Virus record (IMG/VR): IMGVR_UViG_3300028800_000006
Coordinates: 1-64,000 of that record
From: a virus
DNA length: 64,000 nt
Strand: one strand, 5' to 3'
Shown here: one piece after another, positions 2,266 to 55,838 of the stretch
How the letters are laid out: every line of letters starts with the position of its first letter
Position numbering within the stretch: position 1 is the first letter of the stretch
Notes under the pieces: model-generated
Seen by the model: only the letters and a program-made list of their open reading frames with translations
What the model was told of the DNA's origin: nothing
Databases searched by the model: none
Position numbers and translations under genes: made by a program

Positions 2266-2618
2266 TGAGCCTTGATGTTGGTCATCTAGCGCTGCTCGGG
2301 CTGCTCAGCACCGCGCTGCACTGGCTGTTCGCCCGCGCCGAGATCACGCGCCCGCTGTGGTCTCGCGCCACCGGCTGGTTCGCGAAGCTCCTGGCCTGCC
2401 CAGCATGCTCAGGCTGGTGGATCGGGCTCGGGCTCGGAATCGGTGGCGTGCAGCCTGTGGCGGGCCCCTGGCGGCCCCTGGCGGCGATATTCAGCGGCCT
2501 CCTGGCCATCGTGCTGACGCCGGTGCTGGAGGCTGTGATGCTGTGGGGGCTAGAGCGGAGCGCAATCGGTGAGGAAGAGCCGGTCGACCCGAACGATCCT
2601 GACGGGCTGAATAGCTAG
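2265..2618 (+). CDS. DUF1360-like membrane protein
   Basis: 117 residues with three hydrophobic segments (about 8-22, 50-70, 78-98). The central motif LLACPACSGWWIGLGLG matches the Cys-x-x-Cys-x-Gly/Ser-aromatic-Trp signature of DUF1360 membrane proteins found in bacilli and phages. The start ATG shares a base with the preceding stop. The stop codon TAG interlocks with that of the convergent gene (CTAG at 2615-2618). Molecular role of the family is unknown. Confidence 0.65.
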   Translation: MSLDVGHLALLGLLSTALHWLFARAEITRPLWSRATGWFAKLLACPACSGWWIGLGLGIGGVQPVAGPWRPLAAIFSGLLAIVLTPVLEAVMLWGLERSAIGEEEPVDPNDPDGLNS

Positions 2619-2872
2619 CGGGACAGCATCGCGGTCGCGGAGAGCGATCGAACGTCCTCAGCATCATCGGCGTGGTGGCCGTGGATCCACTCGGTCCCCT
2701 CCCTATCCACGCGGCACGTGATGCGCAGCCCTGACTCGGTCATCACGTCGAACTTCTCACGCACAGGTAGATCGCCGAAGGCCTGTCCAACTACAGTCGC
2801 CCGGCTCACCGTGAGCCGGTCACCCGTGTCCCACCACGCTACCGTGATCGGGTCGCCGACCTCCAGCATCAT
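2615..2872 (-). CDS. Small-paralogue family protein (copy 1)
   Basis: 85 residues. It has the two-part architecture of a family repeated at least 15 times here: an N-terminal beta-rich half opening with a GDPITV-like strand, and a C-terminal motif EGTEWIHGHHADDAEDV followed by a short helix. Last gene of a leftward cluster of overlapping genes (ATGA junctions). No known family recognised. The beta half could be an SH3-like or OB-like small barrel, which is inference from strand pattern only. Confidence 0.7.
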   Translation of the reverse strand: MMLEVGDPITVAWWDTGDRLTVSRATVVGQAFGDLPVREKFDVMTESGLRITCRVDREGTEWIHGHHADDAEDVRSLSATAMLSR

Positions 2873-3129
2873 CGCAGCAGCGCCACCTGCGCCTGCAGCG
2901 CCTTTGCGTCATCGGTGTTCCAGCCCCGCGCCCACATCTTGCCCTCGGCAGTCAGAAGCTCACGCCCATGAATGTACTTCCCTTCAGGATCATGCCCGTA
3001 CCACAGGAACGCGTCGTGAGCGCGCTCGCACGGGCCGCCAGCACGCACATGAACCATTTTGTTCATGTCAGTGATGACAATGATCTCGGTGCCGGGCAGC
3101 AGCGGCTTCGACGTGTCCGTTTTCGTCAT
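2869..3129 (-). CDS. Small-paralogue family protein (copy 2)
   Basis: 86 residues. The N-terminal half carries GTEIIVITDMNKMVHVRAGG; the C-terminal motif is EGKMWARGWNTDDAKALQAQ ending in VALLR. Overlaps the next gene by 4 bases. Compared with copies near 54-56 kb, the HH dipeptide after Gly is replaced by WN, so this leftward cluster forms its own subgroup. Confidence 0.7.
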   Translation of the reverse strand: MTKTDTSKPLLPGTEIIVITDMNKMVHVRAGGPCERAHDAFLWYGHDPEGKYIHGRELLTAEGKMWARGWNTDDAKALQAQVALLR

Positions 3130-3377
3130 GCCAGCAATCTAACACGAGCCTCTAAGGCCCGTGCGTCATCGGTGTCGTGGCCCCGGGCCCAGGTGATGCC
3201 TTCCAGGTGAAGGCCAAAATGGGACTCGTGCGCCCTCCAGTCTGCTGCGGGCAGTGCAACAACCGTAAACCACACCACTCCTGAATACGCCGCGACGTCA
3301 GCAACACGCGCAGGCACAACGCCCTGTCCACCGTCCGCCAACGTGACCTTCACCGTTACGGCATCGCCAACAGTCAC
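3126..3377 (-). CDS. Small-paralogue family protein (copy 3)
   Basis: 83 residues. It opens with MTVGDAVTVKVTLADGG, a clear beta hairpin, and ends with EGITWARGHDTDDARALEAR then VRLLA. Linked to both neighbours by 4-base overlaps, so translation is probably coupled. Function unknown. Confidence 0.7.
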   Translation of the reverse strand: MTVGDAVTVKVTLADGGQGVVPARVADVAAYSGVVWFTVVALPAADWRAHESHFGLHLEGITWARGHDTDDARALEARVRLLA

Positions 3378-3652
3378 TCCGGCAGCTCTCCGCCGGCCTC
3401 GACGATCTCGTGTTCGAGCTGGGCGAGCGCCGTGCGTAGCGCATCGCGCAGCCCGAGCGCGAAGGGCAGCGACAGCGGATGGTGCTCGACCGCCAGGTGC
3501 CGTGGGCCTCCGTAGCGGTACGTGTAGGCTTTCAGCAGCGGCGGATGAATCCCCGGGTCATAGGCGCCATCGTCCGTGAGCCCAAGGCGCCGTGGCGCGT
3601 GGGTGAGCCCGCACAGCGGACAACCGAGACGTGTTCGTTCTACGATTGCCAT
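3374..3652 (-). CDS. Small protein with N-terminal CxxC
   Basis: 92 residues. The N-terminus GCPLCGLTHAPRRLG could bind a metal together with His residues. The rest is mixed, with a C-terminal helix (LRDALRTALAQLEHEIVEAG). It lies inside the paralogue cluster but lacks the EGxxW motif, so it is not a family member. Overlaps its downstream neighbour by 4 bases. Function unknown. Confidence 0.55.
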   Translation of the reverse strand: MAIVERTRLGCPLCGLTHAPRRLGLTDDGAYDPGIHPPLLKAYTYRYGGPRHLAVEHHPLSLPFALGLRDALRTALAQLEHEIVEAGGELPE

Positions 3653-3667
3653 GTGACCATATAGAGT

Positions 3668-3928
3668 CTAGCGGAGAAGAGCGTACTCGGCGCGCAGGGC
3701 CTGAAGATCCTCACCGCTATAGCGCGCCCACCAGACGCCTTCCATTCGGAGCCAGACTGGCGCCCAGCGCCGACCTCGATCACGAGCGCCGGCCCGCGCA
3801 TCGCGAACCTTCATCAGCTTCCCGCGCGGGTTGTGCCCCAACACCACACCAAGGCTAGGCGCGCTGCCTAGCAGAATGATCTTGCTGCCCTTCGGCAAGA
3901 ACCGCTGCCAGTTTGGTCGGCGTGCCAT
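3668..3928 (-). CDS. Small-paralogue family protein (copy 4)
   Basis: 86 residues with a basic N-terminus (MARRPNWQRFLPKGSKIILL) and a shortened C-terminal motif EGVWWARYSGEDLQALRAEY then ALLR, lacking the usual Gly-His-His. It is among the most divergent copies. No predicted function. Confidence 0.65.
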   Translation of the reverse strand: MARRPNWQRFLPKGSKIILLGSAPSLGVVLGHNPRGKLMKVRDARAGARDRGRRWAPVWLRMEGVWWARYSGEDLQALRAEYALLR

Positions 3929-3930
3929 TG

Positions 3931-4185
3931 CTAGTCTTTCAACAGTAGGCGCTCAGCGCGGAAGGCATTCGCTTCGTCTGTGTCCCAGCCCATCACCCAC
4001 AGCTTGCGGTAATCACGCCGCAAAAACGACATGGCGGCTCCGCCTCCTGAGCCAGGACGGAATTGAATCCTGCGCCCACCTGAAGGGCCGGTGATGCGGC
4101 CTTGCACCACACCAGCACGTGTCGCCACTGTGACCCTCATCCCCGCGTACACGAGCGGCAGATCTGGACGCCGAGGCCGCTTCAT
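3931..4185 (-). CDS. Small-paralogue family protein (copy 5)
   Basis: 84 residues. The N-terminal half is basic with GMRVTVATRAGVVQGRITG, compatible with a small barrel. The C-terminal motif KLWVMGWDTDEANAFRAERL keeps the W, G, acidic residue and FRA positions. Divergent but recognisable by position and architecture. Confidence 0.65.
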   Translation of the reverse strand: MKRPRRPDLPLVYAGMRVTVATRAGVVQGRITGPSGGRRIQFRPGSGGGAAMSFLRRDYRKLWVMGWDTDEANAFRAERLLLKD

Positions 4186-4424
4186 GCCAGCAACGCCTGC
4201 TGAGCGCGCAGCATAGCCGCCTCCAATGTGCCTTCGAGGGCCCAGGTGACGCCATAGTCGCTGCGCAGCACGTGCCGAACAAGCCGGGGTAGGACGCGAA
4301 GGCGCACGTGGTCCCCTGCGCTTCCGGTCACCTGTGCTTCAGCCACCTCGGGTGGACCATGGGGTGCCGCCACCAGCAGCACCACGACCGGCACACCCCG
4401 CTTGATGTACGCTGCGCTCTTCAT
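4182..4424 (-). CDS. Small-paralogue family protein (copy 6)
   Basis: 80 residues. It begins MKSAAYIKRGVPVVVLLVAA; the C-terminal motif YGVTWALEGTLEAAMLRAQQ ends ALLA. Overlaps both neighbours by 4 bases. This copy has lost the RGHH segment almost entirely, suggesting relaxed or altered function. Confidence 0.6.
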   Translation of the reverse strand: MKSAAYIKRGVPVVVLLVAAPHGPPEVAEAQVTGSAGDHVRLRVLPRLVRHVLRSDYGVTWALEGTLEAAMLRAQQALLA

Positions 4425-4675
4425 GCCAGCAACGCAACACGCGCTCGAAGCTCCAGCGCTTCGATGGTGTCCCAGCCGCGGACCCAGCTCCCGCCATTCC
4501 GCAGCAGCACCGCCTCAGATCGCCGTCCTGCCCGGAAGCTCTCACGCCATTCCACATGGGTGGGGCTGATTCGGACTGCTCGCGCTCGAATACAGTGCTC
4601 GATGCCAAGCATGTCCCACACGTGAAGCGTGATCCGCTCCCCGCGCCGCAATCGCTTCAGCCGCCTCGACTTCAC
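4421..4675 (-). CDS. Small-paralogue family protein (copy 7), first gene of the leftward cluster
   Basis: 84 residues from a GTG at 4675. The N-terminus is very basic (MKSRRLKRLRRGERITLHVW); the motif GGSWVRGWDTIEALELRARV ends ALLA. The recurrent palindrome abuts the start codon (4676-4691) with a TTATCT -10-like element 4 bases upstream of the GTG, so transcription of the whole cluster may be controlled there. Confidence 0.7.
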   Translation of the reverse strand: MKSRRLKRLRRGERITLHVWDMLGIEHCIRARAVRISPTHVEWRESFRAGRRSEAVLLRNGGSWVRGWDTIEALELRARVALLA

Positions 4676-4691
4676 TGCCAGATAACTAGCA
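4676..4691. promoter_or_regulatory. Recurrent 16-bp palindrome, copy 1
   Basis: TGCCAGATAACTAGCA, one base off the perfect form TGCCAGTTAACTAGCA seen at 37542. It immediately precedes the GTG at 4675 and lies between the XRE-like gene and the paralogue cluster, a natural place for repressor control of the cluster. Confidence 0.55.
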
Positions 4692-4708
4692 CAGGCTCGA
4701 ACGAGTGA

Positions 4709-4987
4709 TCAAGCTGCCGCTGCGACCGCCCGAGCCACTGCACCGAAACGGAACGGCTCCGAGGCGCGCCGCGTCTTGTGCACGATAAGCATCAGCCGCC
4801 CCGCGCTCGGCTCCACTCGCCCCGACTCGTACCCCTGCAGGGTCTGCCACGGGATGCCGCAGTGCTTCGCGAACTCCTGCAGGGTCATCCCCATCTCGTC
4901 GCGCAGACGACGGATCTCGGCGCCGACCGCCGCAGAAGCCGTTTTGGTGTCGCCCGACATGATGGAAAGGTAGGGCACGACGCTCAT
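4709..4987 (-). CDS. XRE-family helix-turn-helix transcriptional regulator
   Basis: 92 residues. Residues about 20-75 form a Cro/CI-type HTH: LRDEMGMTLQEFAKHCGIPW, then TLQGYESGRVEPS, a canonical XRE recognition segment. Short and single-domain, like phage Cro or immunity-type regulators. It faces the rightward 5228 gene across an AT-rich control region and lies next to palindrome copy 1. Starts at 4987 or 4960 are both possible; neither has a clear Shine-Dalgarno. It is the best candidate in the window for the protein binding the repeated operators, but that is inference. Confidence 0.8.
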   Translation of the reverse strand: MSVVPYLSIMSGDTKTASAAVGAEIRRLRDEMGMTLQEFAKHCGIPWQTLQGYESGRVEPSAGRLMLIVHKTRRASEPFRFGAVARAVAAAA

Positions 4988-5133
4988 TCATGTCAAGAGG
5001 ACGTGTCGGGTGGACGTCTCCCTGGCAATTCCACATCACCCAGCCCGAAGTGATATGGCACGGTCTTGGCTACGCGTACGCGTACGCGGGCGCGCACGAA
5101 AAGCGAATACGCACATTACTACACAGAATATAT

Positions 5134-5156
5134 AGGTAGTATAGTAAGTATTACCT
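5134..5156. promoter_or_regulatory. Inverted repeat in the divergent control region, candidate operator
   Basis: AGGTA at 5134-5138 and TACCT at 5152-5156 form the ends of an imperfect 23-bp inverted repeat. It lies in the unusually AT-rich 5105-5205 segment between the XRE-like gene and the 5228 gene. A loose promoter (TTGTGT at 5159, TATTCC at 5184) follows for the rightward gene. The region 4988-5227 otherwise holds TACGCG direct repeats (about 5073-5091) and no gene. Confidence 0.4.
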
Positions 5157-5227
5157 TATTGTGTGTGCGTGTGAGGATATTCCTATTCCTTGTAATTCTG
5201 TGATATGGAATCGGCCTGGAGGTCACC

Positions 5228-6142
5228 ATGTCACGCCGCCCCGCTGCCGATGTCGCCGTCCCGATCACGATCGACCAAATTTCTTTTCGCCTCGCCACGA
5301 GCACATTGACGCACCTTCCCGATGCCGTCGCTTTCATCCGCGCACAGCTCCACAAGGGGATCTCCGGACCCGTGGCGGCCGAGTACGCCAGGCTCACCGC
5401 CAAGGCCATGCGCCTCGGGTACGCTGCCGACCCGGCGCGGATCATCTCGCGGCCCGAGCGCACCGCCGTCAACGCCTACTGGGCCTGGGCGGAGCACGCC
5501 TACCACGAGCGCGTGACACCGGTCCTGCGCACCTTCGCTCAGCACGATATCCGGAAGAGCCTGCCCTGGCTCCGGGTGGGCTCGGTCGTGCCCCCCCGTG
5601 AAGGCAAGCAGATCCCCCGGCTGATGCAGGTGGCCCAGCTCCAACTGGACGAGGAGACCAAGGAAGCTGTGATGACGCCGGCCCAGTACGGTTGGGTGGA
5701 CGCCGAGCGCGAGTGGACGCTGCACCTGCCCCATGTGGCGTGCCCGGCCCACCAGGACCCGTGCTCCACCTGTGTGCCTGTCGTGCTGACGGCAGAACAG
5801 GTCGAGGTCATCGCGGCGGCCTTCGAGAAGGCGTGGGGGCATCGAGATCTGACCCGCGTGCCGGCGGACTGCCTCCTGTTCGGCACGCCGCCGCTCGAAG
5901 GGGGGCCCGCCGAGCGCAAGGCGCAAGGGCTGGGCCGGATCGCGGCGCTGATCCCGGAGAGCGCGCTCGCGGGCACGGTGCGCCAGCTCCGCGGTCAGGT
6001 GACGGAGGATGTGGAGGCGTTCAAGGCACGGCTCGCAGATCAGAACACGGACGTGATCGTGATCTCCAAGGCGCTGGCGGGCGCGCGGCTGGCCGATCTG
6101 CTGGAGGCGACCAGGGCGGCCTGGGTGCCAGCCGAGAGTTGA
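5228..6142 (+). CDS. Unknown 304-residue protein
   Basis: First gene of the rightward block, with a strong Shine-Dalgarno (GGAGGT, 5 bases before the ATG). Mostly helical N-terminal half; around residues 174-185 it carries CPAHQDPCSTC, a possible metal site, followed by VVLTAEQVEVIAAAFEKAW. The C-terminal third is helical with heptad character. No family recognised. Its position opposite a repressor-like gene suggests early expression. The stop codon TGA lies inside the -35 box of the next promoter. Confidence 0.75.
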   Translation: MSRRPAADVAVPITIDQISFRLATSTLTHLPDAVAFIRAQLHKGISGPVAAEYARLTAKAMRLGYAADPARIISRPERTAVNAYWAWAEHAYHERVTPVLRTFAQHDIRKSLPWLRVGSVVPPREGKQIPRLMQVAQLQLDEETKEAVMTPAQYGWVDAEREWTLHLPHVACPAHQDPCSTCVPVVLTAEQVEVIAAAFEKAWGHRDLTRVPADCLLFGTPPLEGGPAERKAQGLGRIAALIPESALAGTVRQLRGQVTEDVEAFKARLADQNTDVIVISKALAGARLADLLEATRAAWVPAES

Positions 6143-12705: not shown

Positions 12706-13962
12706 TTAGGTCCCACCAGGCACATCCTGCGCGTTCAGCGGGCGGATCGGCAGCACCCTGCCCCCCACATCTCCCGTGCTCTTGCGGTACACCGCCTCGA
12801 TGCCGCTCGTGTTCGCCATGACGATCGAATTCTCTTCACGAAGCGTGTGGATGATCGTCTCCAAGAAGGTCGACTCCATGCGCACGCGGCGGAGAAGGTC
12901 TCGCCGGCTGATGCCGATCTGCCCTGTGCTCTCGACGGCATCGAGCACGCGCTGCCTGTCGCGCTCCCAGACGCCGAGCGCGAGCCGCTCGCCCAGGTGG
13001 AAGATCGACGGCAGGTACAGCTGCTCGACGAACAGGATCGCCCGTGTCATCGCCTCGTACGACACGAGCCAGCCGTTGCCTGCCGCAGGCTCGCCCATGT
13101 CAGCCGCGTAGAGGAGCGCTACCTTCGCGGCGAGCGTCGTGGCGCCGGAGATGTGCGTCTGCATGCGGGACGGCGCCGAGTTGGATTGCGCGTCGCGCGT
13201 GCGTGACCACTGCTCGAACACGTTCCAGGCTTGCGGGCTGAAGCCACCGCAGGGGTGGAACGGATAGTTGATCATGTTGTACAGAACGCCGATGAGGTAG
13301 TTGCGGGCGGCCGGCCACACCGTGGGCATCCTGAAATCCTCGCGCTCACCGTAGAGAAGCAGCATCCGGCTGAAGAAGCCACCGGTCCAGTCTTCTGTGT
13401 CGGTATAGGCGAAGAGAAGGTCCGTCGAGATCGCGCTCTGCATCGACAGACAGATCGGCGGCTCAATGACCGTTTTGGCCTTGCGCAAATTGCGCACGTA
13501 CGCGCGATCGGGAGGCCAGTCGTAGAGATCCATCAAGCACGTGCGGATCGGCTCTCCGTATCCCCGTTGCGTGGTTTTCATGAAGTGCCCGAACTCGCGA
13601 TAGGTGAGCAGGCCGTGTGGTGTAGACCGGATCTGCGCGATCAGCTCTTCGTAGGACCCCGGGATCGGAATCACCAGCTCAGGGTTCGCGGTCTGCAGCA
13701 GATCGATTCCGATGTCCATCGACCCAGTCTTTCGCGCCGACCGGCTCGGGCCCACCAGCAGCGTGTACAGGTTCGGCATCAGAGTGCGCCCGGCCATCCA
13801 CGGACACGAGATCTTCCGGCCAATCGAGCTTGCTAGGACGGTTAGCCCAACACCTACGTGGTAAATCTCGGGCGCATCGGAACACTGAGCCGCGTACTGT
13901 ACGTAACTACGGAGGAATCCCATACTCTGCGGCAGCGATTGCGAGATGCGGTCGGAGAGCAT
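12706..13962 (-). CDS. DUF3987-like protein with P-loop
   Basis: 418 residues. The region from about 35 to 260 resembles DUF3987 (YfjI-type) proteins: a P-loop-like VGPSRSARKT (70-79), LTYREFGHFM, and LYGEREDF. The third residue of the classic GxxGxGK loop is altered, so ATPase activity is uncertain. A C-terminal winged-helix-like stretch (about 335-395) follows. DUF3987 proteins often accompany phage or plasmid primases and helicases. First gene of the leftward modification operon, with its own promoter. Confidence 0.65.
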   Translation of the reverse strand: MLSDRISQSLPQSMGFLRSYVQYAAQCSDAPEIYHVGVGLTVLASSIGRKISCPWMAGRTLMPNLYTLLVGPSRSARKTGSMDIGIDLLQTANPELVIPIPGSYEELIAQIRSTPHGLLTYREFGHFMKTTQRGYGEPIRTCLMDLYDWPPDRAYVRNLRKAKTVIEPPICLSMQSAISTDLLFAYTDTEDWTGGFFSRMLLLYGEREDFRMPTVWPAARNYLIGVLYNMINYPFHPCGGFSPQAWNVFEQWSRTRDAQSNSAPSRMQTHISGATTLAAKVALLYAADMGEPAAGNGWLVSYEAMTRAILFVEQLYLPSIFHLGERLALGVWERDRQRVLDAVESTGQIGISRRDLLRRVRMESTFLETIIHTLREENSIVMANTSGIEAVYRKSTGDVGGRVLPIRPLNAQDVPGGT

Positions 13963-20554: not shown

Positions 20555-20776
20555 ATGGATTTCATTCATCCGGACACGTGGCGACCGATTCGCCAGCTGG
20601 TGCTCGATGCGATTCCAAAAAGCGGAGAGGGCATCACATATCGCGCGCTCTTACGTGCTGTATGCATGGAGACGAGCGACCTGAATAGAGTAGTGGCCAC
20701 GCTGCGCGAGGAGGGCGTGGTCACGGTCATCCACAACGGGGGCGCTCATCTTGTCCAAACGGAGACCACTACATGA
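20555..20776 (+). CDS. Small winged-helix-like protein
   Basis: 73 residues, ATG with AGGAGA 5 bases upstream. Sequence pattern helix-helix-helix-wing: IRQLVLDAIPKSGEGITYRA, METSDLNRVVATLREEG, VVTVIHNGGAHL, as in MarR/ArsR-like winged helices. May regulate the operon or bind DNA in replication. Confidence 0.55.
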   Translation: MDFIHPDTWRPIRQLVLDAIPKSGEGITYRALLRAVCMETSDLNRVVATLREEGVVTVIHNGGAHLVQTETTT

Positions 20777-39562: not shown

Positions 39563-39588
39563 CCCGCCCACGCCGCGCGGCGTATCCT
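39559..39588 (+). promoter_or_regulatory. Promoter for the 39596 gene
   Basis: TTGACC, 18-base spacer, TATCCT, 7 bases to the ATG. The transglycosylase stop codon (39560-39562) is inside the -35 box. Confidence 0.6.
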
Positions 39589-39595
39589 GGACGGC

Positions 39596-40045
39596 ATGAT
39601 CTCGCGGACCTACGTGGTGTTGATGCCCTCGGGCGGGGAGGCGGCCACACCCGTCAACATCCCCGTGCAGGATGATCCCGGCCTGCCCACCGCGCCAGCC
39701 ACCCAAGGCAGCGCGGCCTGGTTCGAGTGGCGCGGGCGCCCGCTGCGCTTCGAGACAGTAGCAGGGGATCCTGGATTCGTTCCGCGGCTGCGGCTCGGCT
39801 TTGGATTCAGTATCGTGCCATTGGTGTCGCTTGCGACGCCTATCTCGACGGTGGTTCCGTCCGTCGCGTTTTCGGAGTCGCTCGTGCAGGACATGAGCAT
39901 CCTCACGGTGCCAGTGCTCGCCGATCCAAGTGGGATGCCGGCGATTCAGCTCACCGGGAGCAGCAGCACCGCCGGGCACACGTACCTCGTGACGCTTCAG
40001 ATCATGGAAGCCAAGGACGAGGACCGCACGGCCGAGGGGACGTAG
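39596..40045 (+). CDS. Beta-rich probable structural protein
   Basis: 149 residues. Strands dominate (RTYVVLMPSGGEAATPVNIP, AAWFEWRGRPLRFETVAGDP, LRLGFGFSIVPLVSL, SILTVPVLADP, HTYLVTLQIMEAK). Could be a jelly-roll or carbohydrate-binding fold. Leaderless-type promoter directly upstream. No family recognised. Confidence 0.6.
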   Translation: MISRTYVVLMPSGGEAATPVNIPVQDDPGLPTAPATQGSAAWFEWRGRPLRFETVAGDPGFVPRLRLGFGFSIVPLVSLATPISTVVPSVAFSESLVQDMSILTVPVLADPSGMPAIQLTGSSSTAGHTYLVTLQIMEAKDEDRTAEGT

Positions 40046-40277: not shown

Positions 40278-40723
40278 TCACCCGTCAGCTCGGCGCCGGC
40301 TACGCGATCGTCCCCGTCCCGCCCGTGCCCGACTGGAACACGAGCGCTGGCGGCGGCCCCATCAGCCGGTCGTCGCAATCGTCTGTGCCAGCCGGCGCCG
40401 GCAACTACGTGTGGCGCAGCCCGCTCAACGTCGTGCGCGAGGCGGAGCCCGGCGCGGGCTGGTGGCAGGATCTCGCGGCCACGAAGATGTTCCTGCCCGA
40501 CGGCCGGCTCGTGGACGCGAAGCCGTTTGCCTACGACCAGTTCCGCGGCGGCCCGGACATCATCCAGCCGATCGTGACTCAGTCGTCTCGCCTGCTCTCG
40601 CCGTCGTTCGTGGCGATGTGCCTGGGCGCAGCCGCCGGGTACAAGCTGTCTCGCGACAATCACGTGCTGCACGCGGTCGGCGGCGCGATCGTCGGAGGCT
40701 TGCTCGGGCGCGTGTTCGGGTGA
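40274..40723 (+). CDS. Protein with C-terminal glycine-zipper membrane segment
   Basis: 149 residues. Soluble N-terminal part with low-complexity linker (NTSAGGGPISRSSQSSVPAG), then a C-terminal hydrophobic region (FVAMCLGAAAGYKL and AVGGAIVGGLLGRVFG) with GxxxG spacing. Such zippers insert into membranes, in some phages as DNA-injection proteins. Function inferred only from topology. Confidence 0.55.
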   Translation: MITRQLGAGYAIVPVPPVPDWNTSAGGGPISRSSQSSVPAGAGNYVWRSPLNVVREAEPGAGWWQDLAATKMFLPDGRLVDAKPFAYDQFRGGPDIIQPIVTQSSRLLSPSFVAMCLGAAAGYKLSRDNHVLHAVGGAIVGGLLGRVFG

Positions 40724-41067
40724 GCGCCGTGGCGGAGATTGTCACGGTCGTGTGTGACACCAAGGACGGACGTGCTACACGTGTCGAGCGGCGCATGCGC
40801 GACGTGCTTGGCGACGAGGGAATCGACTGGATTCTTGGATCGCACGATCCGAAAAGTACAGACGCTACGGCGCTCCTCGCAGCTAACGCGCTGGCCCGTG
40901 ACCGGCTGGTTGGCGAAGGCTTTACGGGAGCTACTGGCGCCGCTCTCCCGTTTTTGCCCGGACGGCCATACACCGCAGAGAGCGCAAGCACGAGATGCTG
41001 CGCCTGCGAAAGGTTGATGCCCGTGTCAGCCGGTGAGCACGTCACGGAGCCTGCCCATGCCACTTGA
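40720..41067 (+). CDS. Small-paralogue family protein (copy 8, C-terminally extended)
   Basis: 115 residues from a GTG overlapping the previous stop. The N-terminal strand pair (AEIVTVVCDTKDGRATRVER) and the motif DEGIDWILGSHDPKSTDATA then LLAANALARD place it in the family. A 45-residue C-terminal extension carries RCCACERLM, a possible metal site. It is embedded in the structural region, unlike most copies. Confidence 0.65.
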   Translation: MSAVAEIVTVVCDTKDGRATRVERRMRDVLGDEGIDWILGSHDPKSTDATALLAANALARDRLVGEGFTGATGAALPFLPGRPYTAESASTRCCACERLMPVSAGEHVTEPAHAT

Positions 41068-42474: not shown

Positions 42475-42674
42475 CGGCAGCGCAGCGCAAGGAGGCTGCT
42501 CGGCTTGCACACGCTGTGCGGAAGATGGCGCGTGAGGGCGATTGCGGGCACGCATCCAATCTCGTCTACATCATGAGGAAGAAAGGGCTCGTCAGCCCTC
42601 GCCTAGAGAACGCTCTCCACCGCGTTGTTGGCCTGTGCGGCGTACGCGCTCGGGGCTGGCCAACAGACTTCTAA
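42471..42674 (+). CDS. Small basic helical protein (67 residues)
   Basis: GTG overlaps the preceding stop. Helical, basic: QRKEAARLAHAVRKMAREGD, HASNLVYIMRKKGLVSPRLE, with paired Cys. The CxxA-type 'GDCGHASNLVYIM' segment resembles part of the 34005 gene product, so the two may be distant relatives. Function unknown. Confidence 0.55.
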   Translation: MTAAQRKEAARLAHAVRKMAREGDCGHASNLVYIMRKKGLVSPRLENALHRVVGLCGVRARGWPTDF

Positions 42675-42680
42675 AGCTAA

Positions 42681-42854
42681 TCATCGCCGCCAGTGAACCG
42701 GCCCGCCCATCCAACTGAACAGGATCACCAGCAGAACAATCAGCAGCACGACGTGCAGTAGGTTGTTCCCCCGCACCGCAGGCGGCCCGGCCCAGTAGCC
42801 TCCGCCCCAACCGGCAAACACCACGAGCAGGATGATGAGTAGAGGCCACGGCAT
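42681..42854 (-). CDS. 57-residue protein with two membrane helices
   Basis: From the ATG at 42854: WPLLIILLVVFAGWGGGYWA and LLHVVLLIVLLVILFSWMGG. The WGGGYWAG turn recalls DUF3309-like and other tiny phage membrane proteins. A GTG at 42938 with a TACATA -10-like box 8 bases upstream could add 28 residues. Single leftward gene in this segment. Confidence 0.5.
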   Translation of the reverse strand: MPWPLLIILLVVFAGWGGGYWAGPPAVRGNNLLHVVLLIVLLVILFSWMGGPVHWRR

Positions 42855-43122
42855 GGACTCCAGGCTGAGTACGATGGTGCCGGTAAGCAAGTACACGTGG
42901 GTGGGGCTGACCGATTGGCCTGAAAAGCCGAACAGCACAGTGTGCTTATGTAGCAGCGCCGTTCATGGACGGGACGAACACGAGGGGATTCTGTGGATTC
43001 GTGGAGTGCACACCGAAGCCACTGAGGACGGCCGTGCGCTACTGGCCGCATACGCGCTGTCTGATTTGGAGGCGCCGCTCCTGCCGATCAGCGATCCGCG
43101 GCTTGCTTCAGCAGCTCTTTGA
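42853..43122 (+). CDS. Small-paralogue family protein (copy 9)
   Basis: 89 residues. The motif HEGILWIRGVHTEATEDGRA then LLAAYALSD is one of the best matches to the family consensus. The N-terminal half (VSKYTWVGLTDWPEKPNSTV) is strand-like. If the ATG at 42853 is used, its start codon shares CATG (42852-42855) with the divergent membrane gene; an ATG at 42874 is an alternative. The 3' end overlaps the convergent thioredoxin gene by 35 bases. Confidence 0.6.
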   Translation: MDSRLSTMVPVSKYTWVGLTDWPEKPNSTVCLCSSAVHGRDEHEGILWIRGVHTEATEDGRALLAAYALSDLEAPLLPISDPRLASAAL

Positions 43123-43717: not shown

Positions 43718-44866
43718 ATGCCGCGCATGCCGACCATTCACGTTCTCGCGCCGCACCACACGATCGCAAACGACGAGTACAGCCACTGCGCGTTCACCGG
43801 CAAGGCCCGCCGGTTCGCGGCGATGATGAAGCCATTCGGCTACACGGTGCACGAGTACAGCAACGCCGGCTCGCAGAGTGCTGCCGACGTGAAGCACGTG
43901 ATGTTGAACTCCGCCGAGTTTGCGGCGCACATCAAACCCGAGCACGAGAGCCCTGGCGCGCAGGCCAATCCGCACACGCCCGCTGGAGTGATCTTCCGGC
44001 AGCGCCTGTCGCGTGCACTGGCCGAGTACGCCAAGCCAGGCGACATCGTGGCCCACATCTGGACGTCGTACTGGGAACTCATTCGGGACTTCCCGCGACT
44101 GAACCACATCGAGACCGGCATCGGCTACCCCAACGACGGGATCGGCGCGTACCGCATCTTCGAGAGCTACGCGTGGATGCACTTTCATTGGGGGCGCTAC
44201 TGCTCACCGGGCGGAGTGGTGCCGATGACCCAGCAGAGCTACGACATCGACAAGAATCCAGCCTGCACGTGGGTGGTGCCGAACTACTACGACCCGGCTG
44301 ACTGGCCTTTCGTTGGCGAGCCGGAGAATTACGTGGCGTTCATGCATCGCTTCGTCGTCGACAAGGGCATCGAAATGCTGCGCGAGGTGATCAAGGCGTG
44401 GGACAAGAAGCATCCTGGCGACGGGATGAAGTTCGTGCTCGCCGGGATGGGAGGCTACGCGCAGTGGCTCGCGGCGGGGGATTTCACGCCGGCTGAGATG
44501 GCGCGTATCGACTACCGTGGCGTGGTGAACGGGAGAGCGCGGGCCGAGCTGGTCGGGAAGGCGCGGGCGATGTTGATGCCATCGATCTTCGTCGAGCCGT
44601 TCGGTGGGTCTGGCGTCGAGGCGCAGGTGACCGGGACACCGTTGATCGGCCCGGACTTCGGAGCCTTCACCGAGACGATCGAGGACGAGGCGACCGGGTT
44701 TCGCTGCCGCACGGTCGATGATTACGTGCAGGCGATCGAAGACGCGCCGAAACTGGTGCGTCCGTACATCTCACAGCGGGCACGGAAGCTCTACTCGTTG
44801 GAGGCGTGCGGCGTGAAGTACGACAAGATCTTCAAGCGGATCACGACACAGGCGGGCGTGCGGTGA
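43718..44866 (+). CDS. GT4-type glycosyltransferase
   Basis: 382 residues. Rossmann-type halves: IHVLAPHHTIANDEYSHCAF at the N-terminus, then the donor-binding half with MKFVLAGMGGYAQWLA, YRGVVNGRARAELVGKARAM, LMPSIFVEPFGGSGVEAQVT and GTPLIGPDFGAFTETIEDEA, including the E-x7-E element typical of retaining GT-B enzymes. Transfers a sugar to an unknown acceptor, perhaps virion proteins, DNA or host surface glycans. Confidence 0.88.
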   Translation: MPRMPTIHVLAPHHTIANDEYSHCAFTGKARRFAAMMKPFGYTVHEYSNAGSQSAADVKHVMLNSAEFAAHIKPEHESPGAQANPHTPAGVIFRQRLSRALAEYAKPGDIVAHIWTSYWELIRDFPRLNHIETGIGYPNDGIGAYRIFESYAWMHFHWGRYCSPGGVVPMTQQSYDIDKNPACTWVVPNYYDPADWPFVGEPENYVAFMHRFVVDKGIEMLREVIKAWDKKHPGDGMKFVLAGMGGYAQWLAAGDFTPAEMARIDYRGVVNGRARAELVGKARAMLMPSIFVEPFGGSGVEAQVTGTPLIGPDFGAFTETIEDEATGFRCRTVDDYVQAIEDAPKLVRPYISQRARKLYSLEACGVKYDKIFKRITTQAGVR

Positions 44867-49239: not shown

Positions 49240-49971
49240 TTAGGTGTCCTCATCAAACGCGCGGTTCACCTTGGCCCGCGCTTCGTCGGTGGTGTGCATG
49301 TACCCGAACGTCGTCGCCAGCGCTGCGTGACCGACGCGCTCTTGAATGGCTGGCGGCGGCGTCCCTTTGTTCAGCATGTGCGTGACCGCGCTGTGCCGCA
49401 GGATGTGCGGGAAGTGGAACTCGGAGGGGATGCCAGCGGCTGTGAACACCGCGACCACGAGGTGCCGAACCTCGTGTCGGGTCATCCCCCAGCGCTTCCC
49501 GCTCGCGTGGCAGTGAGGGCAGGGGGCCAGCCGAGACTCACTGGCGCCGCCCCGTTTCCGCTTCTTGACGGTGAGCGCTCCCTTGCCGGCACAGGGGTAG
49601 CAGTCGCCAGGTCGCGCCGATGGGAACACGTAGCCGTGCTGTGCAGCCTCGACGAACGTGCGCTTCGGCAGCCAGGCGCGGAGGGCCTCGCGGCAGGCGT
49701 TCGCGAGCGGCTGTGGTTCAGGTTCGAGGCCGCCTTTCAAATGGGTCAACATCACGGTGCCGTTGTGCAGATCCACGTCGGTGATGCGTGCACAGCCGGG
49801 CTCGCTGGCGCGACTGCCGTTTGTGAAGAGCCATTCGATCATCGCGTGCGCGAGGGGGCTGTGGGCGCGAGCGGCAGCGCGGATCTTCTGCAGATCGCCA
49901 GCACCGAGCACAGCGCGCTTTTTGCGGACCTTTTGGGGTTTGCGGGTCATCCGCGGCTCAGGCGCTGCCAC
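49240..49971 (-). CDS. Tyrosine recombinase with zinc-hairpin insertion
   Basis: 243 residues. The catalytic domain has FTNGSRASEPGCARITDVDL (Arg-I), LTHLKGGL (Lys), PHILRHSAVTHMLNKGTPPP (His-x-x-Arg), VGHAALATTFGYMHTT (His, nucleophile Tyr). The N-terminal SAM-like domain is nearly absent. CYPCAGKGALTV and CPHCHASGKRWG insert a CxxCxGxG...CxxC zinc hairpin between the Lys and HxxR motifs. Could integrate the phage, resolve genome multimers or move a cassette. No att site is identifiable. ATG at 49950 is an alternative start. Confidence 0.85.
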   Translation of the reverse strand: MAAPEPRMTRKPQKVRKKRAVLGAGDLQKIRAAARAHSPLAHAMIEWLFTNGSRASEPGCARITDVDLHNGTVMLTHLKGGLEPEPQPLANACREALRAWLPKRTFVEAAQHGYVFPSARPGDCYPCAGKGALTVKKRKRGGASESRLAPCPHCHASGKRWGMTRHEVRHLVVAVFTAAGIPSEFHFPHILRHSAVTHMLNKGTPPPAIQERVGHAALATTFGYMHTTDEARAKVNRAFDEDT

Positions 49972-50895: not shown

Positions 50896-51389
50896 CAGCG
50901 TGGCTCCTTTTTCGCGCGTCGCCTCTGCAGCGCGCCATGATGCTCGTCGAACTCACGGCGGTTCGCGAACACATCTTTGCTCTTCCCGACCTTCGTCTGC
51001 AGCTCGGACACGAACGTGTTCCGCGAGATCTTGCAGGTGTTGTTCATCATGATGAGGCTACCAACGCAGTAGGGCGCAGCGTCCACCGCGGTCTCGAAGT
51101 CGGCGCCTTCCGTTTCGAGCTTGTTCACGGCCATGTGACAGGGGAACTTCCCATCAGCCATGACGATGTCCGTGATCTCGCTCGGGTGGCCGTGCGCGCC
51201 GATCCAGCCGGCAGGGGCAGCTCGGCGGAACGGGCAGTCACCGCACGGTTTGGTGGGATGCCCTGACTTCGACGAAGGCTCGAAGATCTGCGGCTCGTAG
51301 TCGAGGCAGTAGCAGCCGGGGATGGTGCACTTCTGGAAGAAGCCGCTCTCGTGCTCGTCTGGCGCGTGGCCACAGGTGCAGTCGGTCAT
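50895..51389 (-). CDS. Cys-rich DUF6283-like protein
   Basis: 164 residues from ATG 51389. N-terminal MTDCTCGHAPDEHES and CTIPGCYC suggest one zinc site. PCGDCPFRRAAPAGWIGAHG matches the CxxCPFR...GW pattern of DUF6283, and CHMAVN plus APYCVGSL supply more Cys. May be a metal-dependent or Fe-S protein. A helical basic C-terminus follows. Confidence 0.65.
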   Translation of the reverse strand: MTDCTCGHAPDEHESGFFQKCTIPGCYCLDYEPQIFEPSSKSGHPTKPCGDCPFRRAAPAGWIGAHGHPSEITDIVMADGKFPCHMAVNKLETEGADFETAVDAAPYCVGSLIMMNNTCKISRNTFVSELQTKVGKSKDVFANRREFDEHHGALQRRRAKKEPR

Positions 51390-51709
51390 CGCTTCGGCTC
51401 CGTCCGCTTGATGCACGCGTCGTTCAGCTCCCACATCTGGTCACTTCCGATCGGCCCCGCAGTGCCGTCCTTCCACGGGCTCTCTCCGACGAGGGCCGTC
51501 GCTGCGCTGAGCGCCTTCGCTTCGGGGCTGCCGACGATGAGATGTCCAGGCATCCAGCGCCGGCCCTCGTCAGTGATGATAAGCGTGCGCGTTGAAACAG
51601 ACGACGGACGCCCGTACGCCACGCGGAACAGATCTCCAGCGCGGCCGATGACATGGGCGTGCTTGATCTTGAGCCCGGTCGGAATCGTGATGGGGTCGCC
51701 GACGTTCAT
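51386..51709 (-). CDS. Small-paralogue family protein (copy 10, extended)
   Basis: 107 residues. It starts MNVGDPITIPTGLKIKHAHV, the family beta hairpin, with motif DEGRRWMPGHLIVGSPEAKA then LSAATALVGE. A 30-residue C-terminal extension includes MWELNDACIKRTEPKR. Overlaps both neighbours by 4 bases. Confidence 0.65.
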   Translation of the reverse strand: MNVGDPITIPTGLKIKHAHVIGRAGDLFRVAYGRPSSVSTRTLIITDEGRRWMPGHLIVGSPEAKALSAATALVGESPWKDGTAGPIGSDQMWELNDACIKRTEPKR

Positions 51710-52325: not shown

Positions 52326-52765
52326 GACGCCACCCCCGCCAAGCGAGCCTCGGCCGCCTCGGCACGCGCCAGCGCTTCCCCGAGCTGTCCCTGCAGCGAG
52401 CCGATCTTCGTCCTGGCCGCCTCATACTCCTTCTTGAGTGCCTCCAGCTCGGTGGCCAGGGTGATGCTGCGGCCTCGCCAGTAGGTGTTGTCCTTCTTCA
52501 CCGCGGCGACGCGCGTCTCGGCCAGGGCCAGCGCGGTCTCATACTGGGCAGGCAACAGCAGGAGGCTATCGAGCAGCCGCGTGAGCGCCTCGTGCCCGAG
52601 CCGAAAGGCGCAGTCCTCGCGGTGCCAGGCCCATGGGACGTCAGCGTCTATACCCACCACCGATGGGATGCGGCCGTCACAGCACGCGCCGTCGTTCCGG
52701 GTGCTCTCCACGGTGAGGGCGGCGAGCAGCTTCGTCAGCGCCTCCCGATCGGTTGAGGTGATCAT
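52322..52765 (-). CDS. Coiled-coil protein (147 residues)
   Basis: A Cys/His-containing N-terminal part (GACCDGRIPSVVGIDADVPW, HREDCAFRLG), then a long heptad coiled coil from about 85 to 143 (ELEALKKEYEAARTKIGSLQ, GEALARAEAAEARLAG). Function unknown. Confidence 0.6.
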   Translation of the reverse strand: MITSTDREALTKLLAALTVESTRNDGACCDGRIPSVVGIDADVPWAWHREDCAFRLGHEALTRLLDSLLLLPAQYETALALAETRVAAVKKDNTYWRGRSITLATELEALKKEYEAARTKIGSLQGQLGEALARAEAAEARLAGVAS

Positions 52766-53265
52766 CGCCGTGCTTCTTTCTGGGCAGCCTCGTATGCTGC
52801 ACGGAGCGCCTTGACGTCGGCGCTGTCCGGCGCGTGGTGGCCTCGAATCCAGGTGACGCCTTCGTCGCCGAGACGGAAGCCGCCACCACCACGCCCTGTG
52901 ATGGTGAGCCTGCCACTTCCTTCGGGAGAACCGTTCAGGTACGTGAGCGGCCCGCAGTACGCAGGCCCTTCGGGCTCGGTGTGGGGGCGTGCATCCAGTT
53001 CCTGCTCTGTGCAGAAGATGACCATCTTGGCAAGCTCGTGGCGAAGCTTGACCAAGCTCGGGTTGAACGTGAGCAAGAGCAGCCCGCTGGCTTGATGTGC
53101 CGCCTGTGCAAAGGCGGTAGCGCGGCGGTCGTCGGCCTCGCGCCGGTTCCGCACCTCATCCATCAGGCTGGCGGCGAGCTGCTTCACTTCGAGCTGCTCC
53201 TGCGTTTGGGCCTCGGAAACGCCCTTCTTGACGCCCTTCCGTTTCGCTTGCATCATGGGAGGCAC
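52762..53265 (-). CDS. Fusion of helical domain and small-paralogue C-terminus (copy 11)
   Basis: 167 residues from GTG 53265 (or ATG 53256). Residues 1-95 are helical and charged (VSEAQTQEQLEVKQLAASLM, RATAFAQAAHQASGLLLLTF). The last 70 residues are beta-rich and end with the family motif DEGVTWIRGHHAPDSADVKA then LRAAYEAAQK, a near-perfect match. First gene of the 47.6-53.3 kb leftward block. Confidence 0.7.
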   Translation of the reverse strand: MPPMMQAKRKGVKKGVSEAQTQEQLEVKQLAASLMDEVRNRREADDRRATAFAQAAHQASGLLLLTFNPSLVKLRHELAKMVIFCTEQELDARPHTEPEGPAYCGPLTYLNGSPEGSGRLTITGRGGGGFRLGDEGVTWIRGHHAPDSADVKALRAAYEAAQKEARR

Positions 53266-53291: not shown

Positions 53292-53296
53292 AAGAT

Positions 53297-53318
53297 AAAG
53301 TTCGCTATAGCAAACTTT
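53297..53318. promoter_or_regulatory. 22-bp inverted repeat B in the divergent control region
   Basis: AAAGTTCGCTATAGCAAACT plus TT: a palindrome AAAGTT-YGCTATAGCR-AACTTT with a single mismatched pair. Its centre is 27 bp from that of repeat A. A TTGACA follows at 53334. Two adjacent operators between divergent blocks suggest a transcriptional switch. Confidence 0.5.
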
Positions 53319-53367
53319 ACGCTTTGCGTCGTTGACAGCCGGCGGCCGATCGGGCACCGTATGAGGC

Positions 53368-53759: not shown

Positions 53760-53953
53760 CGAAGGCCGAGGCGCGACGGAACATCTATAGGTGCCTTGCG
53801 TTGCTAACTGACCCCGCAGCCGGGCACGAGAACGACTTCTTGTACTCCGACCAGAAAGGCAACGAATACTCGGAGGCGGACACGAAACGACTGACAGAGG
53901 CGCTGGAGCACATCGTTGCCGGCTTCTACAGGAAAGCCAGCACGCTTCGATGA
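53756..53953 (+). CDS. Small acidic protein (65 residues)
   Basis: GTG overlaps the previous stop. Two helices (AEARRNIYRCLALLTDPAAG and ADTKRLTEALEHIVAGFYRK) with a loop NDFLYSDQKGNEY. Overlaps the next ATG by 4 bases. Function unknown. Confidence 0.5.
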   Translation: MTKAEARRNIYRCLALLTDPAAGHENDFLYSDQKGNEYSEADTKRLTEALEHIVAGFYRKASTLR

Positions 53954-54393
53954 CCCTCCGCCGAGATAAAGACGTCGTCAACGACGCCTGTGTGAAGGCG
54001 CTCCGCATGGAGCCGCAGCTGGCCCAGAAGCTGTGCGAAGAGGCTCGCCTGCTCGCGCCGCGGTTCGTCCACCGAAAGTCTAAGGGTGACGTGGCCGAGT
54101 TCTCGCGCTCGCTCATCCGCCGCGGGCTCGGGTGGTCACACGAGCAGTCTGAGCTGATGGAAGCGACCGAGCTGAAGCCTAAGCGCGTCGGTGGCCTGAC
54201 GATGGAGCCTGCCGTGCATCGCCGCCTGACCGAGCTGGCCCAGCGGCACTTCGGTGGCGGTGTGGCCTCGGCCGCGCGGCACCTGCTGCGCCTGGGCTTG
54301 GGCATGAACGAAGGAGAGTCGCTGCGGCGCGAGGAGAAGTTCGCATCGTTGGCGGCAGCGATCCGCGAGGTGCGGGAGGCGCATGAGGGATGA
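53950..54393 (+). CDS. Tandem ribbon-helix-helix-like DNA-binding protein
   Basis: 147 residues with two similar halves: LRMEPQLAQKLCEEARLLAP then EFSRSLIRRGLGWSHEQSE, and LTMEPAVHRRLTELAQRHFG then ASAARHLLRLGLGMNEGES. Each has the strand, helix, helix order of Arc/CopG domains and the same 'LRLGLG' ending. A single chain with two RHH units could bind DNA as a pseudo-dimer, perhaps an operator such as those at 53270-53318. Confidence 0.6.
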   Translation: MTLRRDKDVVNDACVKALRMEPQLAQKLCEEARLLAPRFVHRKSKGDVAEFSRSLIRRGLGWSHEQSELMEATELKPKRVGGLTMEPAVHRRLTELAQRHFGGGVASAARHLLRLGLGMNEGESLRREEKFASLAAAIREVREAHEG

Positions 54394-54539
54394 GCGCGTT
54401 GGTCAAAGGGGCGCCGCTGACAATGGTGGCGCTGGATCAGAACACGAAAGCAACGATACTGATCGACGCTGCCGTGTGCTTCGTTCCGACGTGCGGGCAC
54501 GACGGATTACTGTGGTTGGTGTTCCCGCACGTGCATTGA
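54390..54539 (+). CDS. 49-residue protein
   Basis: ATG overlaps the previous stop by 4 bases. Beta-rich (PLTMVALDQNTKATILIDAA) with CFVPTCGHDG and a terminal HVH. A Cys2His2-type metal site is possible. Function unknown. Confidence 0.45.
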   Translation: MSALVKGAPLTMVALDQNTKATILIDAAVCFVPTCGHDGLLWLVFPHVH

Positions 54540-54543
54540 ACCG

Positions 54544-54780
54544 ATGAGCGAGCTGAAGCCAGGGGACGGAATAACCGTGATGGAGCACTGGCACATCAAC
54601 TACGCCACAGTCACGGACGTCTCCGCCGCCGATTTTAGTGCCGCCTACGTCAGCCTGCCTGGCTGGTCGTGCAAGCTAGGTTTCCAACTCGAAGGAACGC
54701 TGTGGATCCGTGGGCACCATGCAGATGGCTCAGACGATGTTCAGGCTCTGCGGGCCGCCTACTTATTGACCCGCCGCTAG
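54544..54780 (+). CDS. Small-paralogue family protein (copy 12)
   Basis: 78 residues. Begins MSELKPGDGITVMEHWHINY and ends with the consensus motif EGTLWIRGHHADGSDDVQAL then RAAYLLTRR. One of the most typical members. The stop codon lies within palindrome copy 4, and a TTGACC (54766) within its 3' end probably belongs to the next promoter. Confidence 0.7.
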   Translation: MSELKPGDGITVMEHWHINYATVTDVSAADFSAAYVSLPGWSCKLGFQLEGTLWIRGHHADGSDDVQALRAAYLLTRR

Positions 54781-54790
54781 TTAACTGGCA
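54775..54790. promoter_or_regulatory. Recurrent 16-bp palindrome, copy 4
   Basis: CGCTAGTTAACTGGCA, one base different from copy 3 at the outer edge. It falls between TTGACC (54766-54771) and the -10-like CATCCT (54792-54797) upstream of the ATG at 54802, an ideal place for a repressor to block the promoter. Confidence 0.6.
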
Positions 54791-54801
54791 GCATCCTCTG
54801 C

Positions 54802-55065
54802 ATGCCCAAGCAGACCATCCCGGACTCGGTCAAGAAGGTCACAGACACCGTTCACGTGCAGAAGGCTGAGGTCACGCTGCCGATCGACGCGTTCCAGACC
54901 ATCTCGGTGCAGGACTACAAAGACGCGCTCGCGGTCATCCAGCTCGTGCGTGACTCCGCTCTGGCTGTGCTGGAAGTCGACGAGGACAACGCTGACGTCA
55001 CTGCCGTGGAGTACAAGCTGGTCGGTGGAGACGCGGCCGTGACGGTCACGCAGGTGAACACGTAG
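54802..55065 (+). CDS. Unknown 87-residue acidic protein
   Basis: Strand-rich with a central helix: TDTVHVQKAEVTLPIDAFQT, QDYKDALAVIQLVRDSALAV, DVTAVEYKLVGGDAAVTVTQ. Followed by three family members in tandem. Function unknown. Confidence 0.6.
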   Translation: MPKQTIPDSVKKVTDTVHVQKAEVTLPIDAFQTISVQDYKDALAVIQLVRDSALAVLEVDEDNADVTAVEYKLVGGDAAVTVTQVNT

Positions 55066-55069
55066 CTGC

Positions 55070-55303
55070 ATGGTTGCCATTGGGGGCAAGATTACGGTGG
55101 TCGCAGCCTCCGACTCCTCCTTCACGCTCGTAAAGGAAATTCTAGACATCTCCACAATCGGTGCATTCGTTGCTGGAGTGGGTGGGACACGCGTCTGGTA
55201 CCACCCGGAACATGAGGGTGTGCACTGGATTCACGGTAGCCACCTGCCTACGTCGTGCGAAGTGCAGGCGATGCTGGCCGCGCACAGGCTGGTGAGCGAA
55301 TGA
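55070..55303 (+). CDS. Small-paralogue family protein (copy 13)
   Basis: 77 residues. GGKITVVAASDSSFTLVKEI forms the N-terminal beta part; the motif is HEGVHWIHGSHLPTSCEVQA then MLAAHRLVSE. Overlaps copy 14 by 4 bases. Confidence 0.68.
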   Translation: MVAIGGKITVVAASDSSFTLVKEILDISTIGAFVAGVGGTRVWYHPEHEGVHWIHGSHLPTSCEVQAMLAAHRLVSE

Positions 55304-55560
55304 GTCTGCGCGTAGGAGACAAGGTGACGACGGTGGTTCCGGGTGTACCTGAAATAGGCACGCTGGTGAAACGCGTGACAGCTGTTCACGAGGACGCCTT
55401 TCAGGCCGCGTGGTATCCTGACCACGCGGCCAGTAGCCCAGGACCATCGTTCGGCTACCTTCTCGAAAACGAAGGCGTGCAGTGGATTTCTGGCGAACAC
55501 ACGGCAGGGTCTTCGGATGCGATAGCGCTGCTCGCAGCAAACGTACTGGTGCGCTCTTGA
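55300..55560 (+). CDS. Small-paralogue family protein (copy 14)
   Basis: 86 residues. MSLRVGDKVTTVVPGVPEIG opens with the GDKVT element; motif NEGVQWISGEHTAGSSDAIA then LLAANVLVRS. Overlaps copy 15 by 4 bases; the tandem arrangement points to recent duplication. Confidence 0.68.
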   Translation: MSLRVGDKVTTVVPGVPEIGTLVKRVTAVHEDAFQAAWYPDHAASSPGPSFGYLLENEGVQWISGEHTAGSSDAIALLAANVLVRS

Positions 55561-55838
55561 TTGACATCTGCGTTGGGGACAAAGTTACGATCGTGCTCTC
55601 GAACTGGCCTTTAGTGGTCCACAAGTACGTGACGCGTGTTGATCCTGGCGGCGGGTTTGTCGTTGATCATGAAATGAACGAGCACCGAGATAACGAGGGT
55701 GTCGAGTGGATTCGTGGCCACCACGCAGGCAACTCTGATGACGTGCGCGCGTGCCTTGCTGCACGAGCGCTTGTGCGCGAGGACGCTGTGCCTCACCACC
55801 GCGATCCTGATGAGCTAACCTGGCTCGAACGCCAATGA
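55557..55838 (+). CDS. Small-paralogue family protein (copy 15)
   Basis: 93 residues from a TTG overlapping the previous stop (TTGA). CVGDKVTIVLSNWPLVVHKY, then motif NEGVEWIRGHHAGNSDDVRA, CLAARALVRE, and a 15-residue acidic tail. Last of three tandem copies, immediately before the glycosyltransferase gene. Confidence 0.65.
   Translation: MIDICVGDKVTIVLSNWPLVVHKYVTRVDPGGGFVVDHEMNEHRDNEGVEWIRGHHAGNSDDVRACLAARALVREDAVPHHRDPDELTWLERQ

Follow-up and report, generated by a model that had tools for sequence, protein, structure and literature searches.

Why should one phage carry many copies of the same kind of small gene? The question is raised by a stretch of 64,000 nucleotides of viral DNA (the window; positions 1 to 64,000 of IMG/VR record IMGVR_UViG_3300028800_000006), in which an original prediction, made from the letters alone, had picked out a family of 15 undescribed proteins of about 80 residues with a C-terminal motif in common. 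The copies have a common ancestry, lie in syntenic cassettes, vary in number from phage to phage, include one recent tandem duplication, and consist of a conserved half and a free half. They may represent a diversified set of accessory proteins that act on the host.

Translation of the window and a profile hidden Markov model (HMM) placed all 15 copies where they had been reported. The HMM was seeded with seven copies and iterated over all stop-to-stop open reading frames (ORFs) of at least 40 amino acids (aa) of the whole genome, that is, of the 102,927-bp virus record (G000) to which the window belongs. It recovered the 15 copies at E<=2e-11, values that are partly by construction, as copies join the HMM during iteration; the best reversed-ORF control scored 0.22 with this single-genome HMM and 0.044 in the multi-phage set described below. 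A pass with the seeds only found 10 of the 15 at E<1e-5 (seven of these ten being the seeds themselves), one more at 1.5e-4 and two marginally (0.015 and 0.086), and the copies beginning at 3931 and 4182 were picked up only after iteration. Although the count of 15 holds for the window, the full record has 20 family domains: four more lie at 99,023-100,686, and a fifth, at 68.4 kb, forms the N-terminus (about 65 residues) of a 602-aa ORF (68,362/68,386-70,170). The last of the four is frameshifted just ahead of its C-terminal helix, and helix-like residues run on in another frame (G000 100,480-100,720; L004 18480-18720); it is either a broken gene or a programmed shift. This is by far the largest paralogous family of the genome, the remaining paralogue matches being pairs. 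The genome is that of a tailed phage, in which genes for a terminase, a family-A DNA polymerase, helicases, a primase and tail fibres were recognised.

The family extends to related phages. Pattern scans of IMG/VR led to three of them, and a scan with the polymerase added two further records with copies (a 104.6-kb record and an 18-kb fragment). When the HMM was re-iterated over the six records (E<5e-4; best reversed control 0.044), it gathered 66 domains, distributed as 20 in G000, 21 in G004, 15 in G001, 8 in G002 and 1 each in G003 and G005. The DNA polymerases of the five other carriers are 60-74% identical to that of the window. No copies were found in seven records whose polymerase is at most 25% identical, nor in three fragments of the same clade of 6-9 kb. 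Among the records searched, the family is restricted to one polymerase clade. Its absence elsewhere is unproven, because the pattern scans overlooked G004, which has the most copies and was found only via its polymerase; remote members would likewise escape.

In these phages the copies are found at a few set places, which make up at least three syntenic cassettes. The neighbouring genes are conserved and are of the helix-turn-helix (HTH), CxxC and membrane types. In G000, G002, G003 and G004, cassette A (window 2265-6142) lies between a membrane-type gene and a gene of about 300 aa that are the same in all four, and contains 7, 2, 1 and 11 family copies, respectively. Each of these four versions also includes an HTH gene together with one of the CxxC type, whose CxxC was recognised by eye in G000 and G004. 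The leftward cluster at 2615-4675 does contain the seven copies originally attributed to it, but a non-family gene (3374-3652) lies inside it. Between phages the HTH, CxxC and membrane genes of this cassette have mean identities of 47-61%, whereas the best cross-phage match of a family copy averages only 33%. Cassette B (53,950-56,701), present in G000, G001, G002 and G004, opens with a 147-aa gene that is internally duplicated and holds an 87-aa partner gene; a glycosyltransferase-type gene marks its end in G000 and G002. Cassette C (98.3-100.7 kb) adjoins a gene whose product has membrane segments and finishes in a RuvA_C-like part (Pfam E 2.6e-6). In most cases, successive cassette copies are linked by start/stop overlaps of 4 bases; a scan of cassette A for promoters and terminators found none.

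The copies group by cassette more than by genome, as judged from a tree of their sequences. The cassette label requires 19 changes on the tree where shuffles need 33.7; for the genome label the figures are 25 and 33.2. Neither observed value was reached in 300 shuffles, a procedure that ignores the kinship by descent of tandem neighbours. Cassette-specific lineages thus appear to have expanded locally. Seven of the 59 forks of the tree are starred, and since it resolves few forks we claim no history of duplication. One recent event is directly visible in G004, where a half-copy of 132 bases is repeated in tandem with 116 of 132 positions identical. Twelve of the 16 changes fall at codon positions 1 and 2, and nonsynonymous and synonymous divergence are nearly equal (dN 0.136, dS 0.121; dN/dS about 1.1); for this one pair there is accordingly no sign of purifying selection.

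The alignment of the 66 domains defines an invariant core, E-G-x-x-W-[IAV]-R-G followed by A-L-x-A-A-x-A-L. Its tryptophan, the only aromatic residue that is nearly invariant, is kept in 65 of the 66, the glycine in 63, the glutamate in 58 and the arginine in 45, and the last leucine in all 59 domains that reach that position; the helix is present in 63. The motif of the original prediction stands as a conserved C-terminal signature, except for its pair of histidines, which is typical only outside the leftward cluster: copies 2-7 there lack three or four residues at this point and read WARGW---DTDD or similar. Conservation is unevenly spread. Averaged over 1,886 pairs, the first 43 alignment columns are 15.5% identical and the last 28 are 40.8% identical, and the N-terminal half is, on this evidence, nearly free to vary. 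In seven of the 66 members the C-terminal half alone matches the profile, among them copy 52762, where it follows a helical part, and a G002 copy, where it stands behind a part of the CxxC/CxxC type. Conversely, three matches stop short of the helix (the frameshifted copy, the domain on the 602-aa ORF and G001 44654). Nor is there an electrostatic character common to the copies, since net charges in the window span -6.9 to +11.6, about half of the copies being acidic and several in cassette A strongly basic (+9.5 to +11.6).

What the copies do appear to have in common is a fold. The AlphaFold2 model of copy 54544, computed from a 32-row alignment (predicted local distance difference test [pLDDT] 96.5, predicted TM-score 0.84), has strands at residues 9-14, 17-26, 30-35 and 42-46, a turn at about 47-50, a strand at 54-56 and a helix at 64-76; we are confident in this prediction of an SH3-like five-stranded barrel with a C-terminal helix. 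Unrelated folds among the copies would have spoken against a single family, but a model of copy 4421 from an alignment of cassette-A members only (pLDDT 83.5) has the identical order of strands and helix; the two alignments were built separately and have some rows in common, so are not fully independent. In both models the signature motif maps to the last strand and the helix.

The fold is already known; the family is new. The nearest solved structures by Foldseek are PWWP, KOW, Tudor, Agenet and chromo-barrel domains, including Spt5 KOW domains and a Shuguo PWWP-ssDNA complex, at E values that are not significant (best 0.058 and 0.084). With these "Royal family" and KOW barrels the proteins have the small five-stranded barrel in common, and the MSL3 chromo-barrel (3ob9_E) superposes on the family model at TM 0.62/0.66, but the E-G-x-x-W-x-R-G signature is absent there, and at E<=1 in Pfam the Tudor, PWWP, chromo-barrel and KOW profiles match none of 32 members. 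Tudor and chromo-barrel domains hold methylated ligands in an aromatic cage, whereas in the family the tryptophan alone among aromatic residues is nearly invariant. Unnamed phage barrels in BFVD (DUF2187 of a Listeria phage, DUF7241 of a mycobacteriophage) are likewise stand-alone, of similar size and of similar predicted fold; they differ in that the best E (0.011) is not significant, the listed identities are 5-32% and no common signature is shown.

That the family had not been described before is borne out by searches with its members. Pfam, PHROG and NCBIfam gave a convincing match for none of the 32. No convincing relative was found by tblastn of two members against 50,697 phage records (INPHARED) or of one member against 72,556 plasmids (PLSDB), and a scan of IMG/VR with a single protein gave no match. 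GTDB genomes yielded neither the family nor a relative of the polymerase (like the tblastn searches, a scan that distant members would escape), and there was no DNA-level similarity to known phages. A literature search, with thin coverage of subscription journals and preprints, turned up no account of such a family. Several weak candidates were dismissed. Phrog_1611 matches one of the 32 members (copy 1, E 0.04) and reaches E 0.003 over the genome G000, yet four control genomes match it when the cut-off is equally loose. Mycobacteriophage Acadian and phiCbK gave weak tblastn hits, but these score E>=0.6 with the family HMM. Expanded small phage proteins as such have precedents; the novelty lies in the family itself and in how far it has multiplied and diverged on a single scaffold, within fixed cassettes of a phage clade.

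How might such a set have arisen, and to what end? We suggest that the family grew by tandem duplication within a few fixed accessory cassettes of one tailed-phage lineage, and that the copies then diverged rapidly, were in some cases lost, or became fused to other domains. The last strand and the helix (E-G-x-x-W-x-R-G ... A-L-x-A-A-x-x-L) would be a fixed frame, possibly a shared docking face as well, and the N-terminal strands and loops a changeable recognition face. Most likely produced inside the infected cell, the copies would then be a diversified set of small accessory proteins that bind and block different host targets in defence or host takeover. Given one fold, a conserved and a free half, many copies, fixed cassettes and fast turnover, the most economical reading is that the copies meet variable partners, which would accordingly be host targets and not phage machinery. 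We put the probability of this explanation, tandem duplication giving rise to diversified accessory host-interaction proteins, at roughly 40%, its functional part being conjecture from anatomy and precedent. An anti-defence or multi-target inhibitor role, as the original prediction had proposed, remains plausible. Its claim of strong selection fares less well: the retention of the tryptophan and the helix beside an almost unconstrained N-terminal half supports it indirectly, but dN/dS is near 1 in the one recent duplication, and positive selection is not shown.

Precedents offer parallels rather than tests. The internal proteins of T4 (IPI, IPII, IPIII) are small, diverse anti-restriction proteins with one segment in common, and IPI* has 76 residues and two beta sheets (PMC3012670). 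There, however, the shared part is a capsid-targeting sequence, whereas here it is a folded strand and helix, and the family is known from its genes alone. The 85-residue T4 counter-defence gene tifA was amplified in tandem under toxIN selection (PMC9391042); the likeness lies in the tandem copies of a similarly small gene, but the tifA copies arose in a selection experiment and those of the family are old and strongly diverged. Cassette A, with its fixed Cro/C1-type HTH gene, may also be compared with anti-CRISPR loci, in which small genes accompany an HTH Aca gene, although no search was aimed at known anti-CRISPRs. Genes of the Cro/C1 type are common.

Several observations weigh against a role in host interaction. 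None of the copies is like any anti-defence or host-takeover protein already described: the sole PADLOC match, a partial one of 19 bits to JetB (E 1.1e-4; 1 of 32 members), is read as chance. A dN/dS near 1 in the sole measurable pair is also expected from neutral drift. Moreover, a long ORF in the tail-gene region includes one of the domains, and two copies are found amid structural genes, as would suit a role in the virion. The copies might then be minor capsid, tail or adhesin-attachment proteins, and their duplication would vary the surface of the particle or the way in which tail fibres are attached. It is the 68.4-kb ORF, which starts with a family domain, that makes this the main rival, unlikely as we consider it. 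That domain is of an FFAQLR subtype, and related copies in G001, G002 and G004 form a supported clade with it (96/86). Copies 40720 and 42853 lie near a transglycosylase-type gene in what had been called the structural region, one G001 copy (42,511-42,879) ends in a short collagen-like GPTGPTGPAG stretch, and G002 encodes a long collagen-like protein at 70,000-73,026. Yet a fusion to a putative virion protein is seen for only one domain in 66, and since the 602-aa ORF matches nothing in Pfam, PHROG, the PDB or phages, its label as a tail protein is a guess from place and composition. Most copies, furthermore, sit in accessory cassettes beside regulator-like genes, and copy numbers of 1 to 21 would be unusual for structural parts. 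Injected effectors after the manner of the T4 internal proteins, with a C-terminal segment directing them to the virion and a variable part acting in the host cell, are decidedly unlikely. Conservation of one segment beside free variation of the rest would fit, as would the seven members that match by the C-terminal half alone, and those of T4 are described as diverse defence proteins with only a capsid-targeting sequence in common (PMC3012670). But in the models the conserved segment lies inside the folded domain and is not a detachable tag, and no cleavage site is evident. It is also C-terminal, whereas the targeting segment of T4 internal proteins is N-terminal.

A role as KOW- or PWWP-like regulators that bind transcripts or DNA of phage or host seems a little less probable than one in the virion. 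The Spt5 and Shuguo structures among the nearest folds, the strongly basic copies of cassette A and the HTH gene belonging to that cassette would all be in keeping with it. The acidic copies and the non-significant Foldseek and absent profile matches are not, and the conserved motif, one arginine apart, has no basic enrichment; given the range of charges, the earlier proposal of a modular DNA/RNA-binding set is disfavoured as an account of all the copies. Very unlikely, in our view, is non-adaptive birth and death, in which recombination-driven tandem duplication leaves drifting copies of little or no function. The dN/dS of about 1.1 in the duplicated G004 half-copy, the frameshifted copy and the single copy of G003 would be expected of it, but reading frames, starts and 4-base couplings are preserved in nearly all copies, the tryptophan and helix persist, and the same cassettes house copies across different phages. 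Host interaction through diversified copies might, in a more specific and doubtful form, be a barrel repertoire: about 20 specificities encoded simultaneously, each with a fixed docking face and a free recognition face, the barrel being also fitted to helical, CxxC-type and tail-region proteins. Phages with 1 to 21 copies offer a natural series for asking what repeated duplication of a small gene buys, and were the host-interaction explanation true, the family would offer, on one scaffold, a compact supply of proteins that bind many bacterial targets.

Table 1. Family copies and associated genes in window coordinates (E values of copies from the HMM re-iterated over the six phage records; orthologue identities are means)
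Feature	Position	Strand	Remarks
Membrane-type gene flanking cassette A, syntenic	2265..2618	+	Orthologues in G002, G003, G004, 53% identity
Family copy 1, cassette A	2615..2872	-	84-85 aa; E 1.6e-16; overlaps copy 2 by 4 bases if start is ATG at 2872
Family copy 2, cassette A	2869..3129	-	86 aa; E 1.2e-14
Family copy 3, cassette A	3126..3377	-	83 aa; E 1.4e-13
CxxC-containing partner, cassette A, non-family	3374..3652	-	92 aa; orthologues in G002, G003, G004, 47% identity; no match in Pfam or PHROG
Family copy 4, cassette A	3668..3928	-	86 aa, isoelectric point 11.8; E 6.9e-10
Family copy 5, cassette A	3931..4185	-	84 aa; E 2.2e-16
Family copy 6, cassette A	4182..4424	-	80 aa; E 3.7e-8
Family copy 7, cassette A	4421..4675	-	84 aa; E 1.9e-13; AlphaFold2 pLDDT 83.5
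HTH (Cro/C1-type) regulator, cassette A	4709..4987	-	Pfam HTH_3 E 6.8e-10; orthologues in cassette A of G002, G003, G004, 61% identity
Family copy with C-terminal extension, structural region	40720..41067	+	E 1.3e-11; GTG start
Family copy, structural region	42853..43122	+	E 3.6e-10, C-terminal half only (profile positions 42-71)
Family copy with C-terminal tail	51386..51709	-	107 aa; E 1.3e-13; start probable
Family C-terminal module after helical N-terminal part	52762..53256	-	164 aa; E 3.9e-14, profile positions 34-69; start probable
Conserved cassette-B gene, internal duplication	53950..54393	+	147 aa; orthologues in G001, G002, G004, 36% identity; no Pfam match
Family copy, cassette B	54544..54780	+	78 aa; E 3.7e-20; main AlphaFold2 model
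Conserved cassette-B partner, non-family	54802..55065	+	87 aa; orthologues in G001, G002, G004, 40% identity
Family copy, cassette B	55070..55303	+	77 aa; E 1.9e-15
Family copy, cassette B	55300..55560	+	86 aa; E 8.7e-17; 4-base overlaps on both sides
Family copy, cassette B	55557..55838	+	93 aa, TTG start; E 1.6e-19

Copy 40720 overlaps the gene upstream of it by 4 bases, and its G002 equivalent (85,997-86,119) adjoins the same gene. The product of the duplicated gene that opens cassette B is possibly a twin ribbon-helix-helix protein, as read by eye from its sequence. Genes of the sugar-nucleotide/glycosyltransferase type occur in or beside cassettes, at 43718-44866 and 55835-56701 of the window by profile and at 84,358-85,593 and 100,502-102,234 of G004 by eye. 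Directly behind family copies in G001 is a DnaA C-terminal DNA-binding domain (113,587-113,976; L088 8588-8974; PF08299, E 1.1e-19), and a gene near cassette C bears an alanine-rich tail of low-complexity repeats (G000 97.9-98.2 kb, L004 15679-16239; G002 39,288-39,986).

Finally, we note some features of the phage itself. It may be temperate: the window contains a tyrosine recombinase/integrase gene (49243-49950; PF00589, E 4.6e-23), and G002 has a gene of like appearance close to one of its family copies. The family-A DNA polymerase (22301-24811) has an N-terminal uracil-DNA glycosylase domain (PF03167, E 4.6e-12), a region conserved across an alignment of four polymerases of the clade. A short ORF at 20555-20776 is 40% identical over 65 aa to the primase-like gene at 12706-13962.

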